Assembly (NCBI RefSeq): GCF_026241135.1
Contig: NZ_JAPFGA010000002.1
Span: 1-64,000, forward strand
DNA: 64,000 nucleotides
Direction: 5' to 3'
DNA from: Galbibacter kalidii
GTDB taxonomy: Bacteria; Bacteroidota; Bacteroidia; Flavobacteriales; Flavobacteriaceae
Part shown: positions 438-56,183 of the stretch, piece after piece
Numbering within the stretch: position 1 is the first letter of the stretch
Layout: every line of letters starts with the position of its first letter
Program-made: the position numbers and the translations under genes
Notes under the pieces: generated by a model
What the model was told of the DNA's origin: nothing
The model's input: only the letters and a program-made list of their open reading frames with translations
Databases searched by the model: none

Positions 438-3400
438 ATGTCTGCCACTCAATTTAAAAAATGGGATACTATTCTTGGTTGGATAGTTTTTTTAATCGCA
501 TTAATTACCTATCACCTGACCGTAGAACCTACTTCCAGCTTTTGGGATGCAGGGGAATATATTGCCACTTCGGCCAAATTACAAGTAGGACACCCACCGG
601 GAGCTCCCTTCTTTCAAATGATCGGTGCTTTTTTTGCCATGTTTGCCTCAGATGCAGAAGCTGTGGCGGTGACCGTGAATCACATGTCGGTTTTTTCCAG
701 TGCTTTTGTAATCCTTTTTATGTTTTGGTCCATTACCAACATTACCCGAAAGCTCGCCTTAAAAACAGGGGAACTTACTCCGGCAAAACACATCGCCATT
801 TTGGGAAGTGGATTGGTCGGGACACTAACCTTTACTTTTTCAGATAGTTTTTGGTTTAATGCTGTAGAAGCCGAAGTTTATGCCATGGCCATGCTCCTTA
901 CCTCGCTCATGGTTTGGTTGGGACTGAAATGGGCAGACGAAATACATACGCCTCGGGGACATCGTTGGTTGGTTTTGATCGCATTGGTGGTCGGACTTTC
1001 ATTCGGAGTTCATTTTATGGCATTGCTGACTATTCCTTCTTTGGGGATGATCTATTATTTCAAAAATTATAAAAACTACAATGCCAAGTCCTTTATTATA
1101 GCCAATATCATTTCCATAGCCATATTGTTATTCATCTTTAAGCTTTTGCTTCCTAATGTGATGAAAGTATTCGGATATTTGGAGGTCTTCTTTGTAAACA
1201 GTATCGGATTGCCTTTCAATTCGGGGACGATCATTGCCGGTATCATTATCATCGCTATTTTTTATTATGCACTATCTTATACCCGCAAGAAAAATTATAA
1301 ACTGATCAACACCATAGTACTTAGTGTGCTATTCATCCTCATCGGTTTTTCTACGTGGATGATGGTTCCCATACGTGCCAATGCAGGAACGGTCATCAAC
1401 GAAAATAGCCCTACGGATGCACGTCAGCTTTTGGCGTACTATAATCTGGAGCAATACCCGGAAACGCATTTGTTCTACGGTCCTATGTATTCTGATGCTT
1501 TTGCAGGGCAAGATCCGGACAACCCCTACATGGACGATAAACCTAAATACGAAAGGGATTATAAAACCGGCAAATATGTTATCGTAAACAAATACAAAAA
1601 TTCAAGGGTTGCTCCCAATAGTGCTCATGAAGGTTTTCTGCCGAGAATGTGGAGCAGCGAACACGCGGCTAACTACATGAAAATTACCGGGCCGCTCAAT
1701 ATCAAACCCAAACCGCAATATCGAAGTGAAAAACAACTCACCGACGCCATCAGCCAGTTTAAACGCGATTTGGAAAACCGCACTATTGATGAAGAAGAAT
1801 ACACCAATTTCATCAAGCAGTTTGGGGAGTATATCACCGTTGAAAAACCGAGTTTCTGGCAGAATATGCACTACCTGTTTGAATTTCAAATGGGTTATAT
1901 GTACTGGCGTTATTTTATGTGGAATTTTGTAGGCCGTCAGGATGATGTCCAAGGAAAATTGGATAACCACGGGAATTGGCTCAGCGGAATAAAATTTATA
2001 GATGAATGGCGTTTAGGATCACAGGACAACCTCCCATCGGATGTGCTGGACAACAAAGGCCGAAACACTTATTTCTTCTTGCCACTTATTCTCGGACTGA
2101 TCGGTTTTATCTTTCTTTTAAAATCGAGCAAGCAACAATTCTGGGTGTTATTCGCTTTGTTTTTGTTCATGGGGGTGGCACTGAAAATATATCTGAACGA
2201 AAGGCCTTTTGAACCCCGCGAGAGGGATTATGCCCTCGTAGGATCGTTTTTCGTGTTTTCCATGTGGGTTGGTATGGGTGTTTATGCCCTTTTTGAAGAG
2301 TTTAAAAAATACCTCAAACCAAAAATTTTGGCTCCGGCTATTACTTTGGTTTGTCTGTTTGCCGTTCCAACGGTGATGGCTTATCAAAACTGGGATGATC
2401 ACGACAGAGCCAATCGCTATACGGCACAGTCGATGGCAAAATCATATCTGGATTCTATTGAAGAAGACGCAGGCGCCATGTTGTTTACCATTGGGGATAA
2501 CGACACCTTCTCTTTATGGTATGCCCAGGAAATTGAAGGTTACCGTACCGATGTAAGGACCATCAACACCAGTTTGTTTGCTACGGATTGGTATATCGAC
2601 CAGATGAAGCGTGCTGCTTATGAAAGTGCTCCGATACCTTCGCAGCTTACACACGATAAATACGCTTTCGGAATCAGGGATGCTGTTTACCTCCAACAGT
2701 TGACCGATGAACGATGGGACATCAAAAAATTTATGGACTGGGTGGGCAATGACCAAAATACCATTCGCAATCTCATCAAAAAACAAGGTGGTGATACGAG
2801 TCAGTATCCGGAGAACTACCTCAATATTCATTTTTACCCTACCAACAAGATACGGGTACCTGTCAATAAGGCCAAAGTGCTTGAAAACGGTTTGGTAAAA
2901 GCAAAGGATTCTGCCGATGTTGTGGATTATATTGATATTAACCTTCCAAGTGCGTTGACCAAAAACAGATTGTTAATGCTCGATATTTTGGCAAATAACG
3001 ATTGGGAACGCCCTATCTATTTTACCGGAGGAAGTTTTGACAAGGCCGAATATATGTGGATGAAAGACTATTTACAACTCGACGGATTGGTATACAAGCT
3101 CGTTCCTATCAAAACGCCGATAGCCCCGAACAACCCATACGAAATGGGAAGGATAGACGAAGACCTGATGTATGATATTGTGAAAAAATGGGATTGGGGA
3201 AATTCAGAATCGCCGGATATTTATCACGACCCTGAAACCCGAAAGAACAGCATCTCATACCGTGGAAACCTTGCCCGATTGACCGAAAAATTGATAAAAA
3301 CGGATAAAAAAGACAAAGCAAAAGATATTTTGGACCTTGCGATGGAAAAAATGCCGTTTGGTTATTTTGGGTATTACGTCTTTTTAGAACCCTATGTTGA

Positions 3401-43466: not shown

Positions 43467-44855
43467 TTATTCTAAATATTTACTTAAATCCGAGATAATT
43501 ACATTTGCATTCAATATCTTTCCATTTTGGTCTATTAATATGTATCTAGGTATGGCTTTAATTTGGAAATGTTCCGCAAAAGAGCTTTGAAACCCATTTG
43601 GGACATATAGCTTTAAGCTTCCAGGGACATCCAATTTTTCAATACTTTCTTTGAAGTTTGTTATGTCTTCATCGATTGATAGAGAAACAACTGTCAATTG
43701 GTCTTTATATTTGTTTTCTAGGGATTTTACTTCCGGAAATTTAACGATACAAGGCTTACACCAACTTGCCCAAATGTCTAAAAGAATCATTTTATCTAAC
43801 TTATTCACTTCTAAATTAAAGTCATTTGATAAGTGATCTTTAAAAGTGAATTCTGGCACATCGGCTCCTCTTTCATAAGATTTCTTTTTATTTTCAGCCA
43901 GGTCATATATTTTTATCAGTTTATTATAAGCCTCCTCATTTAAAGCTGATTTATATTGATTAAACATTTCCTTGGGTGGTGTCAAATTCAATGAATCTGG
44001 AAAATGGTCAAACTCCAGTGGATAATATTTTAGATCATTATAAATTAGCATAGATTTTATAGGCTGTGGAAAATACTCTGAAATGATATTCTCTCTTAAA
44101 ATGTAGAGTTCTTGCTCTTTTCTTACCTCATTCAATTTTTCACGATATTTTTTCTTTAAGAAATATTCAACCCCCATTTTTCTGTAAAATGATTTTAAAA
44201 ATGAAGACTCTAAATAAGGTTCTATTGTTTGAAAATTGATTAAATCTTTGTCAAGATATTGAAAAAACAGACTATCCTTCTTAGAATTGCCATTCCTGTT
44301 TATATAATCTAGATATACTGTATTCTTGAGGGCTTTGCTTTCTATTAATTGTAAGTTATAAAAATGCTTATTTTCTTTTTCAGAGATGTAGTCGGTCAAT
44401 AATTTGTCTTTAGCCCTAAAATATTCATCCACCTGATTTTTGAAATCATTAAATGAATTTTTGTAGTTCCATTCTTTACTTTTTAAATCTGCATTTGATA
44501 AGACCTCTTGCATAAATTCGTTTTCACGTTCAGAAGTTCCTTCATAAACGTATATATCATTTTCTTTAGATATTTTTAAATGCTCCGAGGGTTGGACATA
44601 TAGTTGAAGCACTTTTCCCTGTAATTGAAGATAGAGATATTGAGGTCTATCAATTGACAAAGTAATTTTTCGTTCATCAGGATTATTGATGAGGATTGTA
44701 TCATTATAATCGACAAAATTTTCGGAAAACCTTGTAATTATAACTTGCTGAGGAAATTCTTTTACGAAATTCAATTCTACAAATTCTGAACCCCCTTCTC
44801 TTTTACAACTAAAAAGAAAAATTATAAAAATGACAAATATCTTAAATCCTCTCAT
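43467..44855 (-). CDS. TlpA-like redoxin lipoprotein with long N-terminal domain
   Basis: The 462-residue protein begins with a lipoprotein signal (MRGFKIFVIFIIFLFSC), then ~320 residues of an uncharacterised helical and beta region, and ends in a thioredoxin-like domain. That domain has WASWCKPCIVKFPEV (CKPC active site) and IKAIPRYILIDQNGKI. It is transcribed from a promoter and ~100-base leader that are almost identical to those of the CPA2 antiporter gene 2.4 kb away. ATG 44855 is chosen so that the signal peptide is at the N-terminus; 13 upstream codons are open but lie in the leader. Confidence 0.85.
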   Translation of the reverse strand: MRGFKIFVIFIIFLFSCKREGGSEFVELNFVKEFPQQVIITRFSENFVDYNDTILINNPDERKITLSIDRPQYLYLQLQGKVLQLYVQPSEHLKISKENDIYVYEGTSERENEFMQEVLSNADLKSKEWNYKNSFNDFKNQVDEYFRAKDKLLTDYISEKENKHFYNLQLIESKALKNTVYLDYINRNGNSKKDSLFFQYLDKDLINFQTIEPYLESSFLKSFYRKMGVEYFLKKKYREKLNEVRKEQELYILRENIISEYFPQPIKSMLIYNDLKYYPLEFDHFPDSLNLTPPKEMFNQYKSALNEEAYNKLIKIYDLAENKKKSYERGADVPEFTFKDHLSNDFNLEVNKLDKMILLDIWASWCKPCIVKFPEVKSLENKYKDQLTVVSLSIDEDITNFKESIEKLDVPGSLKLYVPNGFQSSFAEHFQIKAIPRYILIDQNGKILNANVIISDLSKYLE

Positions 44856-44871
44856 TGGGACAGTTTTTTTA

Positions 44872-45097
44872 CATTGCACACAACTTATTAACAACCTTAA
44901 TATAAATAACCATTTACCAAAAAAATTGACCAGATATACACAATATCACATATATTCCTTTCAAATATAACCCTTTTCCTTTTAGGTATAATCAAGCTGT
45001 TTTTAGCCCAAAAGCTATCCCATTTAGGTAAAAAGGTGTTCCGTTTAGGTTCAATCATGTTCCGTTTAGCGAAAAAGGTGAAACTTTTAGGTCTTAT
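44872..45097. repeat. Promoter-leader cassette with 6-unit 21-bp array (short copy)
   Basis: The block from GCACACAACTTATT through the -7 box CAAATATA (44962-44969, TATATTTG on the minus strand) to six 21-bp units (44972-45097) is nearly identical to 47340-47559 on the other side of the antiporter gene. Units 2-6 are CAAGCTGTTTTTAGCCCAAAA, then GGTGTTCC-GTTTAGG types, each carrying a TTTAGG core. It drives the minus-strand TlpA gene at 44855. After the sixth unit the two copies part. Confidence 0.85.
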
Positions 45098-45149
45098 CTT
45101 GAAGCACGAAAACCCTGCTTGTGTTTAGGTGCTGTTGGGCGTCTGGGCT

Positions 45150-47318
45150 TTATTTTCTTCTGAATATTTTCGCAATCGTTTTTCCAATTTCGTCAAATTT
45201 TTCAATCGGTTCTAATATGGTCGGGTCTTTCAAGTCAATTTTTGATGTGTCTGTAACCCCAATCTGCATAGGATAAATCAGGATAAAGCTGTTGTCCTGA
45301 AAATACTTATTGAGGTAAGACGGTATCCTTTCCATATTGCTGTGGTAGGAAGGCTTATCCTTTCGGCTTAGTATAATAATCAGGTTGTCGTCTTTCTGAA
45401 AGTCCCTTGATAAAATAAGGAAGTCATCCCAATCGCTAAATTCTGTAAATTCAGATTCCACAGGATGCTTTGAATGTATTTCTTTAATGAATTTAAGCGT
45501 TTTTCCTGTTGCATAAAACACAAGTTTTGCTCCTGTATTTCTTGCGATATTCCAAACCTTAATGAGCCAAAAGGGAAAGCCGATTTCCTTTTCTGCTTCG
45601 TTCGGAACGATGATGATATGCCTTTTTAATGTCCCAAATGGTTGGGCAGGTTTATAGATTAAAATTGTCGCGTTGCATTTTGTTAATATGCCTTCGGTCA
45701 GGTTGCCCAAGAATGAATCGGAAATTCCTTTCTTCATGTGAAGCCCTAATATTAAATCACTTATTTTATGTTCCTTCACCACACTAGTAATTCCGTTTAC
45801 AATATTGAGATCATATCGAAGAAGTTCATGCAAAAAATTGTCGGTTGCAGAAGCGGTTACGGCTGCTCTATTCAATATCTTCTTTGCTTTTTTGTCTGCT
45901 GAATCGTCTGTCGTATTGTTGTCGATAATGCTTAAGGCATACAAGCCGTCTCTGTTTTTCTTTGATTTTATGGTGATGCCTAAATTGATGAGTTCATCTG
46001 TTGTTTCCGGGTTGTTGATTGGGATTAAAATTCTTTCACAGGCTTCTGATTCATCGCTTGCTGTGTCACTTGCCTCTGCAAGGGCGATATTTTTGGCTCC
46101 TTTTTGCGCAACGAATGAAGCAATAGTGCAGGTAAATAAAATCATTAGAATAGTTCCATTCAGGACGCTCTCATTTAACAAGCGGACAGGTTCGCCCGTT
46201 TCGGTTTCGCCAACTATGATATTATAACCGACTAACACGGCCGCTAATGTGGCTGCTGCCTGCGCGTTACTCAATCCAAAAATCAATCTTCTTTCATCAC
46301 CGGAAAATTTAAAGGTTTTTTGAGTGAGCCATGCAGCGATGAATTTTGCGGAAGTAGCAATAATTATCATTACGGCTGCCACTTTCATGGTTTCCAAATC
46401 CTCAAAGAAAGCCCTGTAATCAATGAGCATACCCACTCCTATGAGGAAAAACGGAATAAAAATGGCGTTTCCAACAAATTCAATCCTGTTCATTAAGGGC
46501 GATGTTTGCGGGATAAGTCGGTTTAAAGCCAATCCTGCTAAAAAAGCTCCAAGGATTGCTTCTATTCCAGCCGCTTCAGCAAGAACAGCACCAAGAAATA
46601 CCATTACCAGAACGAATATGTATTGGGAAACATTATCGTCAAACCGCTTGAAAAACCATCTGCCGATAATTGGAAAAAGCAACATCACAATAAGTCCGAA
46701 AACGACAATGGAAACAGACAGCCTTACCCAAAATTCTGTATTTACTTCACCTGTGGTCATACCCACAATAACGGCAAGTACCAATAAAGCTAAAGTGTCG
46801 GTTATCATTGTTCCGCCTACGGTTATGTTTACCGCCTTGTTTTTGGCAATGCCCAATTTGCTGATTAAAGGATAGGCGATTAAAGTGTGTGAGGCAAACA
46901 TACTTGCCAGCAAAATGGATGTGGGGATTGAAAATTCTAAAACGTAAATTCCGGTTAAAGTCCCCAAAGTCATTGGCATCAGGAAAGTGTAAAGTCCAAA
47001 TACCAGACTCTTTTGACTGTTCTTTTTGAAGTCGGCTAAATTTATTTCCAGACCTGCAAGGAACATAATGTATAAAAGTCCTGCAGTTCCTGACAGTATA
47101 ATGCTGCTGTCACGATTCATCAGGTGAAAACCGTTTGGCCCGATTACCGCACCTGCTATAATAAGTCCTAAGAGATGAGGAATTTTAATTTTGTTCAGAA
47201 TAATGGGAGCGAACAAAATAATTACGAGTATCAAAAGGAATTTTAATACCGGATTTGTCAGTGGTAAGGCTGTCTCAAATATGTTTAATAATATCATTCC
47301 TTGTCTTATGATTGTCAT
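45150..47318 (-). CDS. CPA2 family cation:proton antiporter with UspA domains
   Basis: The 722-residue protein has the CPA2 monovalent cation:proton antiporter fold in its first ~410 residues: about 12 helices, with PHLLGLIIAGAVIGPNGFHL, a broken-helix region LGIAKNKAVNITVGGTMITDTLALL and AEAAGIEAILGAFLAGLALNRL. The second half (~430-722) carries two universal-stress-protein-like regions (RILIPINNPETTDEL, then LILGLHMKKGISDSFLGNLTEGIL), as in NhaS3/KefB-UspA types, with no TrkA-N nucleotide domain. It would exchange Na+ or K+ for H+ under nucleotide or stress control. It is flanked on both sides by the duplicated promoter cassette. Confidence 0.88.
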   Translation of the reverse strand: MTIIRQGMILLNIFETALPLTNPVLKFLLILVIILFAPIILNKIKIPHLLGLIIAGAVIGPNGFHLMNRDSSIILSGTAGLLYIMFLAGLEINLADFKKNSQKSLVFGLYTFLMPMTLGTLTGIYVLEFSIPTSILLASMFASHTLIAYPLISKLGIAKNKAVNITVGGTMITDTLALLVLAVIVGMTTGEVNTEFWVRLSVSIVVFGLIVMLLFPIIGRWFFKRFDDNVSQYIFVLVMVFLGAVLAEAAGIEAILGAFLAGLALNRLIPQTSPLMNRIEFVGNAIFIPFFLIGVGMLIDYRAFFEDLETMKVAAVMIIIATSAKFIAAWLTQKTFKFSGDERRLIFGLSNAQAAATLAAVLVGYNIIVGETETGEPVRLLNESVLNGTILMILFTCTIASFVAQKGAKNIALAEASDTASDESEACERILIPINNPETTDELINLGITIKSKKNRDGLYALSIIDNNTTDDSADKKAKKILNRAAVTASATDNFLHELLRYDLNIVNGITSVVKEHKISDLILGLHMKKGISDSFLGNLTEGILTKCNATILIYKPAQPFGTLKRHIIIVPNEAEKEIGFPFWLIKVWNIARNTGAKLVFYATGKTLKFIKEIHSKHPVESEFTEFSDWDDFLILSRDFQKDDNLIIILSRKDKPSYHSNMERIPSYLNKYFQDNSFILIYPMQIGVTDTSKIDLKDPTILEPIEKFDEIGKTIAKIFRRK

Positions 47319-47422
47319 TGTCCTGTCGGATTTTCAGCCTTGCGCACAACTTATTTATAACCTCAATATAATACCGCATATCCCCCAACCGGTCAGATAT
47401 ACATAATGGCATATATTCCTTT

Positions 47423-47430
47423 CAAATATA
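47423..47430 (-). promoter_or_regulatory. -7 box of the CPA2 antiporter
   Basis: CAAATATA on the plus strand reads TATATTTG on the minus strand, matching TAnnTTTG. The 21-bp array begins four bases upstream of it, and the leader to the ATG at 47318 is about 100 bases. The same box, at the same distance from the start codon, precedes the TlpA gene at 44855. Confidence 0.7.
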
Positions 47431-47433
47431 ATC

Positions 47434-47853
47434 CTTTTTTCTTTTAGGTATAATCAAGTTGTTTTTAGCTCAAAAGGTGTTCCATTTAGGTAAAAAGGTG
47501 TTCCGTTTAGGTTCAATCATGTTCCTTTTAGCGAAAAAGGTGAAACTTTTAGGTCTTATCATGAAATTTTTAAGGGGAAAAGCCAAACTTTTAACCAAAA
47601 TGCCCAAAACTTTAGGTATTACTCCCAAATTTTTAGGTGTTGAGGCTAAATAGGATATGATTTTGATGAAACATTTCATGAAATAACCTAAACGTATGGA
47701 GTTTGACGCTAAAACTTTGGGTAGGCATTCTAAACGATTGGTTTTTATGTCCAAAGTTTTAGGTATCGACCCTAAAGTTTTAGGTCCGGGAGCTAAAAAA
47801 TGCTGCATTTGACCTAAAGGCATCATGTTTTTACCTAAATAGGGCAGTTTAAT
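47434..47853. repeat. Twenty-unit 21-bp degenerate tandem array
   Basis: Cutting the sequence every 21 bases from 47434 gives 20 units in register with no insertions or deletions to 47853. Most units have a core near CCTAAA-NN-TTTAGG, for example CCCTAAAGTTTTAGGTCCGGG at 47770 without its last base. The first six match the short copy at 44972-45097. The spacing equals two turns of B-DNA, so the cores face the same side. Any frame therefore encodes seven-residue periods (PKxLGxx on the minus strand, 47470-47856); no known protein family appears. Confidence 0.92.
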
Positions 47854-47863
47854 CAAAAAAAAA

Positions 47864-47987
47864 CTGTCTAAAAAGCCCTAGATGAACTTGATTTGCCAGT
47901 CTGAGCTTGTCGAAGACATGTTAATCTTTAGCAAATTATGCTTCGACAAGCTCAGCATGACATCTGAATTTGTAGCTTTTTAGACAG
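47864..47987. mobile_element. MITE-like element E, copy 1
   Basis: Ends CTGTCTAAAAAG and CTTTTTAGACAG are perfect inverted repeats. Inside, AGTCTGAGCTTGTCGAAGACA and TGCTTCGACAAGCTCAGCATGACA form a second inverted pair. A copy in the opposite orientation lies at 53500-53623. No transposase is encoded; such ends resemble those of several Bacteroidota insertion sequences, so it is probably a non-autonomous element. Confidence 0.8.
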
Positions 47988-48008
47988 CCTCATCGTGTTT
48001 AACAACTG

Positions 48009-53489: not shown

Positions 53490-53499
53490 GTGTATGAGG

Positions 53500-53623
53500 C
53501 TGTCTAAAAAGCTGCAAATTTAGATGTCATGCTGAGCCTGTCGAAGCATAATTTCTTGAAGACCAATATGTCTTCGACAAGCTCAGACTGACAAACCAAG
53601 TTCACTCAAGGCTTTTTAGACAG
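53500..53623. mobile_element. MITE-like element E, copy 2
   Basis: The inverted ends CTGTCTAAAAAG and CTTTTTAGACAG are 124 bp apart, and the inside matches copy 1 at 47864-47987 in reverse orientation with few differences. It starts 11 bases from the blaI ATG, in the operon's leader or promoter. Confidence 0.82.
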
Positions 53624-56101: not shown

Positions 56102-56183
56102 AGGACCGAGCGTTAAGAAAAGGTACAGTGTACCTTTTTAGCAGGACCGAGTGTAAAGAAAATGCCCAGTGGGCATTTTTAAC
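56102..56183. repeat. 41-bp doublet with covarying hairpins upstream of umuC
   Basis: Two direct 41-bp units, each AGGACCGAG[CT]GT[TA]AAG then a hairpin. The hairpins are AAAAGGTA-CAGTG-TACCTTTT (56118-56138) and AAAATGCC-CAGTG-GGCATTTT (56159-56179). The stem bases differ but pair in both, and the loop is the same. A further GCTTGCC...GGGCAAGC inverted pair follows at ~56193-56237. Confidence 0.8.

Follow-up and report, generated by a model that had tools for sequence, protein, structure and literature searches.

REP and BIME sequences, as well as REPINs, are dispersed palindromic sequences that occupy intergenic regions in multiple copies. Rows of sites in helical phase are found in iteron-type partition and replication sites, such as parC bound by ParR, and in these systems the protein assembles on the rows. 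The DtxR/IdeR box, in turn, corresponds to TTAGGT-N7-ACCTAA. As far as we know, neither a xenogeneic silencer nor a phased-array nucleoid protein has been established for Bacteroidota. No description of a 21-bp-phased CCTAAA/TTTAGG array element was found in the open-licence literature, although this absence is weak evidence, and the nearest published analogue that we have seen is the TAACTGA repeat family, which is described as consisting of intergenic direct repeats present in Beggiatoaceae, Cyanobacteria and five Bacteroidetes, with a proposed post-transcriptional role near start codons (PMC4679880). The window analysed here, by which we mean the whole stretch of 64,000 nucleotides of Galbibacter kalidii DNA, contains two arrays of the 21-bp kind, and many others are found elsewhere in the genus.

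Array, promoter and leader in the window

The larger array (Table 1) covers 420 bp and divides into twenty units of 21 bp with zero slips. An exact CTAAA or TTTAG half-site lies in register in 17 of the 20 units, and one matching in at least four of its five letters in 19, the maxima reached among 2000 dinucleotide-preserving shuffles per score being 3 and 8, respectively. The half-sites thereby keep a fixed helical register beyond chance, and both the extent and the slip-free 21-bp period given in a preliminary description of this DNA are borne out. Most units had also been described as near-palindromic, which overstates their symmetry, since both halves are present at four or more of five letters, forming a near-complete CCTAAA-NN-TTTAGG dyad, in only six of the 20 units (starting at 47582, 47603, 47624, 47708, 47750 and 47771). 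Units 1-6 retain only the TTTAG half and units 18-20 only the CTAAA half; this polarity is the main feature of the locus, and the image of a plain palindromic array is not supported.

As had been stated, the array abuts the -7-like box of a CPA2 antiporter gene, a box that we take to be of the Bacteroidota TAnnTTTG type. Among six congeners, the exchanger of the window has no match in four, shows 43% identity in G002, and has a weak partial match in G004. The second array, missed in the preliminary description, sits directly behind another TATATTTG box, and the thioredoxin-like gene that follows may have its true start further in than the one listed. Two other repeats of the window, an inverted-repeat element and a tandem repeat, are included in Table 1 as separate observations.

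Table 1. Positions of the arrays, promoter elements, genes and additional repeats in the window.
Feature	Positions	Strand	Remarks
20-unit, 21-bp-phased array	47434..47853	.	TTTAGGs at the promoter side, near-complete dyads in the middle, CCTAAAs at the far end
TATATTTG -7-like box of the CPA2 gene	47423..47430	-	Nearest CTAAA starts 16 bp before TTATATTTG
Leader with predicted 13-pair hairpin	47338..47422	-	Conserved with 13 other copies in the same genome
CPA2-type Na+/H+ exchanger gene	45150..47318	-	PF00999, E 7.1e-51
Second array, six units	44973..45098	.	94% identical to the 20-unit array over 130 bp
TATATTTG box of the second array	44962..44969	-	Nearest CTAAA starts 15 bp before TTATATTTG
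Thioredoxin-like protein gene behind the second array	43467..44894	-	Pfam match; listed start codon TTG in the leader
Inverted-repeat element of roughly 125 bp, first copy	47863..47988		Ends CTGTCTAAAAAGC / GCTTTTTAGACAG, inner CTTCGACAAGCTCAG hairpin; adjoins the far end of the 20-unit array
Inverted-repeat element, second copy	53498..53623		
41-bp repeat, two tandem copies	56102..56181		79% matching

Copies in Galbibacter and other Bacteroidota

The array is not peculiar to the CPA2 promoter, since at least 13 distinct arrays occur in the G. kalidii genome (G000), corresponding to 15 matches of an array-only query for which the best 40 of 48 candidates were scored. Eleven of the 13, which are paralogues and do not represent 11 independent events, adjoin at their promoter side a TTATATTTG box (CAAATATAA on the other strand), those without it being C48:198932 and the fragment C19:32687. 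Leaving out C48, which has an array without the leader, 21 promoter/leader copies were examined for box spacing. The box was found in 20 of them. Within the 460 bp upstream of it, 18 of these 20 contain at least one CTAAA, the nearest of which starts 13-17 bp before TTATATTTG in 15 of the 18. Later CTAAA units step by 21 bp (16, 37, 58, 79, 100 and 121 bp in the window copy), so that the distance between array and box is loose, with a 4-bp range, and that between units is rigid. The leader that follows the box, of about 90 bp, is conserved in 14 aligned copies with a common predicted hairpin of 13 pairs, the covariation of which is weak (one pair changed on both sides), and among 60 genomes searched it was matched only in G000, with 15 matches.

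Pfam matches were obtained for 12 of the 20 proteins scanned downstream of the G000 copies (from a total of 22, the two omitted having only ORFs of 50-54 codons), and comprise a Na+/H+ exchanger, a GNAT acetyltransferase, thioredoxin-like and AHSA1 proteins, a sigma factor, AraC- and LytTR-type regulators, glyoxalase-like and sulfatase-modifying-factor-like proteins, an AAA ATPase, and two reverse transcriptases; no partition genes appear among them. PADLOC gave matches for three of the ten downstream proteins submitted; for the two reverse transcriptases these are AbiP2 and UG17, which belong to the defence (DRT) group. In two regions of this genome (L066, G000:C19:25.7-37 kb; L014, G000:C92:64-77 kb), runs of genes with the same leader before each have the appearance of cassette clusters, encoding reverse transcriptases of the AbiP2 and UG17 groups and one AriA/NsnB-like ATPase.

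Related genomes, in which the preliminary description had proposed to look for such arrays, do carry them, although not throughout. When TTTAGGN15TTTAGG was counted against a reversed-pattern control, G003, apparently Galbibacter mesophilus, gave 102 against 3, with at least 13 array clusters among the places listed, and G000 gave 26 against 8. The excess is little in G006 (8 vs 4) and absent in G002 (1 vs 5) and G005 (2 vs 4), and other repeats inflate the counts of G001 (41 vs 0) and G004 (51 vs 4). One of them is the heptamer TTTAGGC, distinct from the array unit but with the same TTTAGG letters, which forms runs at G001:C56:118639-118763 and 154497-154565 and at G004:C1:864791. A G003 array used as a query matched at least three of 60 relatives (G000, G001 and G003), the best candidates being scored. 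A strict two-dyad pattern retrieved 30 stretches of genome contigs, all of them from records titled Bacteroidota: ten from G. mesophilus, nine from one Chitinophagales MAG, and 11 others. Of 14 two-dyad loci inspected, L119 and L128 have only two or three units, and the rest are longer, with a period near 21 bp, several of those outside the genus slipping by 1-2 bp. Allowing two mismatches, 73 of 299 genomes of the family were matched, mostly by single hits and many also with control hits, a result that we do not take as evidence of spread. Viral contigs were considered as carriers and rejected, the two exact-match stretches being irregular, unrelated-looking repeats; these IMG/VR contigs (L146:13900-14400; L147:95-510 and 2770-3040) contain irregular CTCTAAAGCCTTAGG-like units that are not of the 21-bp kind.

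The polarity recurs in these copies. In all 13 arrays of G003 scored, TTTAG exceeds CTAAA in the left half and the reverse holds in the right half, and the same is seen in L078 of G006 and in C103 and C19 of G000; the arrays of G001 came out split by the array finder in this scoring. The MAG arrays lack polarity, as exemplified by L133 (17,17 / 16,15).

With regard to gene context, 27 of 34 arrays have a called gene on both sides, in tandem (19), divergent (6) or convergent (2) arrangement, and at 25 of these 27 at least one gene starts on the array side; these neighbours are simple ORF calls, seven of the 34 arrays lacked a neighbour on one side, and the counts come with no background for intergenic length. 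The distance from the G003 arrays to the next gene is roughly 100-670 bp. In this genome, the genes downstream of the family F1 arrays are ordinary ones (menD-like, inositol monophosphatase, QRPTase and START-like), genes resembling toxin-antitoxin systems follow a single F3 copy in each of G003 and G006, and four of the ten proteins scanned beside F1 and F3 arrays have no Pfam match. At the menD locus, G003 has about 940 bp, including an array, between the upstream gene and the menD promoter region that is common to G006, and the matching blocks are separated by 15-201 bp in six of six congeners. The array-bearing insertion (L159) is flanked by direct repeats of 222 bp that are 81.5% identical, and its self-comparison lists these repeats and array self-matches, with no other inverted ends. 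In a Bacteroidetes MAG (L116:3477-4385), the genes on the two sides of an array converge, and one of them, which encodes a DtxR-like iron-dependent repressor, has its 3' end 24 bp away from the array.

Conservation of the register was assessed by aligning arrays within three families: F1 (seven arrays, 21 pairs), F3 (four arrays, six pairs) and a G000 family (five arrays, ten pairs). Indels other than of unit length numbered 6 in 5360 bp inside the arrays and 77 in 2569 bp of flank for F1, 0 in 1296 bp and 24 in 1281 bp for F3, and 9 in 1530 bp and 26 in 812 bp for the G000 family. Two other scorings changed the inside counts (25 and 12 for F1, 4 and 4 for F3, 2 and 18 for G000) and left the direction unchanged. 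Per base, across the three families and the three scorings, non-unit indels in the array interiors are rarer than in the flanks by a factor of about 3 (2.8) to 27; the Fisher p-values of the other scorings, from 1e-3 to 6e-35, are not to be taken literally, as pairs share history. Unit-length indels inside arrays (13, 8 and 8 for F1, F3 and the G000 family) predominate or not depending on the scoring, with 13 unit-length against 6 other in F1, or 11 against 25. Spacers, with identities of 0.75, 0.78 and 0.71 in the same order, diverge as much as the flanks (0.78, 0.80 and 0.80), while core columns reach 0.87, 0.87 and 0.84. Loss of the register in close relatives had been named beforehand as an argument against phased binding: G003 and G006 retain the register for the most part, but a 1-bp slip is present in each of the three G001 arrays inspected (L079, L080 and L081), and the G000 family is not free of non-unit indels.

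Interpretation of the arrays

A spacing that is mostly kept while the letters in between change suggests that an uncharacterised protein may lie along one side of the DNA. Judging from sequence, the reading that we tentatively prefer, and to which we give a little less than an even chance, is that of a non-coding array that a putative sequence-specific protein would bind cooperatively, on one face of the helix and upstream of promoters; we infer this protein, its cooperativity and any effect on transcription. There would be one protein site per two helical turns, always on the same DNA face, each site being a dyad of two half-sites; peripheral sites mainly keep the half directed towards the array interior. 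Binding would start at the fuller dyads and extend outward by protein-protein contacts, the inward-facing peripheral half-sites being suggestive of such nucleation and cooperative spreading. In G. kalidii, the array lies close upstream of the -7-like box in a repeated module of promoter and leader that precedes mixed, partly accessory genes. It would probably act through a nucleoprotein structure built ahead of the promoter, for silencing, insulation or architecture, and not by touching RNA polymerase at one fixed position; a fixed contact is less likely in view of the 4-bp variation in the distance to the box.

Conserved half-sites and a nearly rigid two-turn period match the needs of protein sites arranged in a row on one face of the DNA. 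The arrays do not behave as expected of a neutral relic (small indels as in the flanks), a coding repeat (an open frame) or a hairpin (pairing in the spacers). The earlier proposal of phased sites on one face is supported, with non-unit indels rare inside arrays, but not as regards plain palindromes. More speculatively, and with rather doubtful prospects, the arrays might constitute a new chromosomal nucleoprotein element of Bacteroidota, in which a dedicated filament protein would nucleate on complete CCTAAA-NN-TTTAGG dyads and spread outward over inward-facing half-sites at two-turn spacing, some species having made the array a mobile module that would mark or silence accessory genes, including anti-phage reverse transcriptases. 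If a protein does read the arrays, their 21-bp grammar would provide a ready bait and a clean phase test, and their patchy presence within one genus, abundant in G003 and without excess in G002 and G005, a natural comparison for finding the corresponding gene.

The main rival that remains is a dispersed selfish repeat, be it a miniature element or a cassette-boundary module, whose 21-bp period would be a relic of tandem duplication without a host role; we regard it as possible, albeit unlikely. The unit order and leader common to the copies, the restriction of the leader to one of 60 genomes, the menD insertion of G003 with its direct repeats, and the patchiness of the arrays are all in keeping with it, but a relic should gather small indels as its flanks do, and the arrays gather far fewer; their core columns are also more conserved than their spacers. 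Both readings are compatible, in that a functional array could form part of a mobile module. Putative intrinsically bent DNA, in which AAA/TTT tracts phased at two turns would need no specific protein, agrees with the return of A3/T3 tracts every 21 bp with the phase kept; it is nevertheless quite improbable, as the outer letters, unnecessary for bending alone, are conserved too (C 0.68 in column 1, G 0.76 in column 12). There is likewise only a slender chance that the arrays are conventional multi-site operators from which a regulator would touch RNA polymerase or directly obstruct the -7 box. The position of the first half-site in 15 of 18 promoters would fit such an operator, but the box distance varies by 4 bp with units fixed at 21, and the G003 arrays lie further from genes. 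Single operators spread over the genus, as for DtxR/MntR, were sought in the form TTTAGGT-N5-ACCTAAA with one mismatch in the array-less congeners G002 (3 vs 9 in the control) and G005 (0 vs 3); no excess was found, so that nothing in these two genomes points to a genus-wide operator, a result that also weighs against the preferred reading.

A heptapeptide-repeat protein, decayed or expressed, had been offered in the preliminary description as an alternative. It takes its appeal from the divisibility of 21 by 3 and from the open frames of 64 and 128 codons that cross the 20-unit array, but it is hardly credible and was rejected, given that stops interrupt every one of the six frames in 21 of 23 arrays (the exceptions being C103 and a 49-codon stretch of L142); the scarcity of stops in the PKxLG frames simply reflects a core that contains none. 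A structured RNA or terminator, with hairpins formed by the two arms or by each unit, is very unlikely in spite of long and strong predicted hairpins. In the pairing tests, which took 19 of the 23 arrays, arm complementarity exceeds that of unit shuffles when all columns are counted (Stouffer z 5.3), but spacer columns show none (z -1.4), and neither dyad shows covariation in 322 units of 23 arrays. G.T mismatches exceed A.C (243 vs 172, orientations mixed). Over 15 arrays, folding against column shuffles ranges from z 1.3 to -7.0, with five arrays more stable (z -3.6 to -7.0), whereas unit-order shuffles shift the folding energy little (z 0.7 to -2.3). No Rfam family reaches its gathering score, the six matches in five loci (best E 0.00073) all falling below it, and the two from L001 fall within the neighbouring hairpin element and not inside the array. 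We read the arm pairing as a by-product of core polarity, and put the column-shuffle signal down to the gradient of cores along the array, which the shuffle destroys within halves. The hairpin was thus rejected on the spacer-only complementarity and covariation tests, however impressive the folds.

Relation to known systems

Taking the protein-bound array as the preferred reading, its likeness to described systems is partial in each case. The arrays share with REP, BIME and REPIN sequences a dispersed, intergenic, palindromic and multi-copy nature, but their rows, at a constant helical phase, extend to 20 units or more, with neither spacer pairing nor covariation; the compensatory changes typical of REP/REPIN-type elements were found neither in the units nor in the spacers of the arrays compared. 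Like the iterons of parC/ParR, they are rows of sites in helical phase, and unlike them they occur at many chromosomal loci, with no partition genes among the 20 downstream proteins. The half-sites resemble those of the DtxR/IdeR box (AGGT...ACCT), and the MAG array adjoining a DtxR-like gene may be taken as a lead only; the spacing, however, is N5 and not N7, and arrays are not single boxes. With the TAACTGA repeats the arrays have in common a short motif, intergenic direct repeats at many loci, patchy occurrence in distant lineages and a frequent position upstream of genes, and differ from them in having a half-site spaced at 21 bp instead of a heptamer and in a polarity that the abstract of that publication does not mention for the heptamer.
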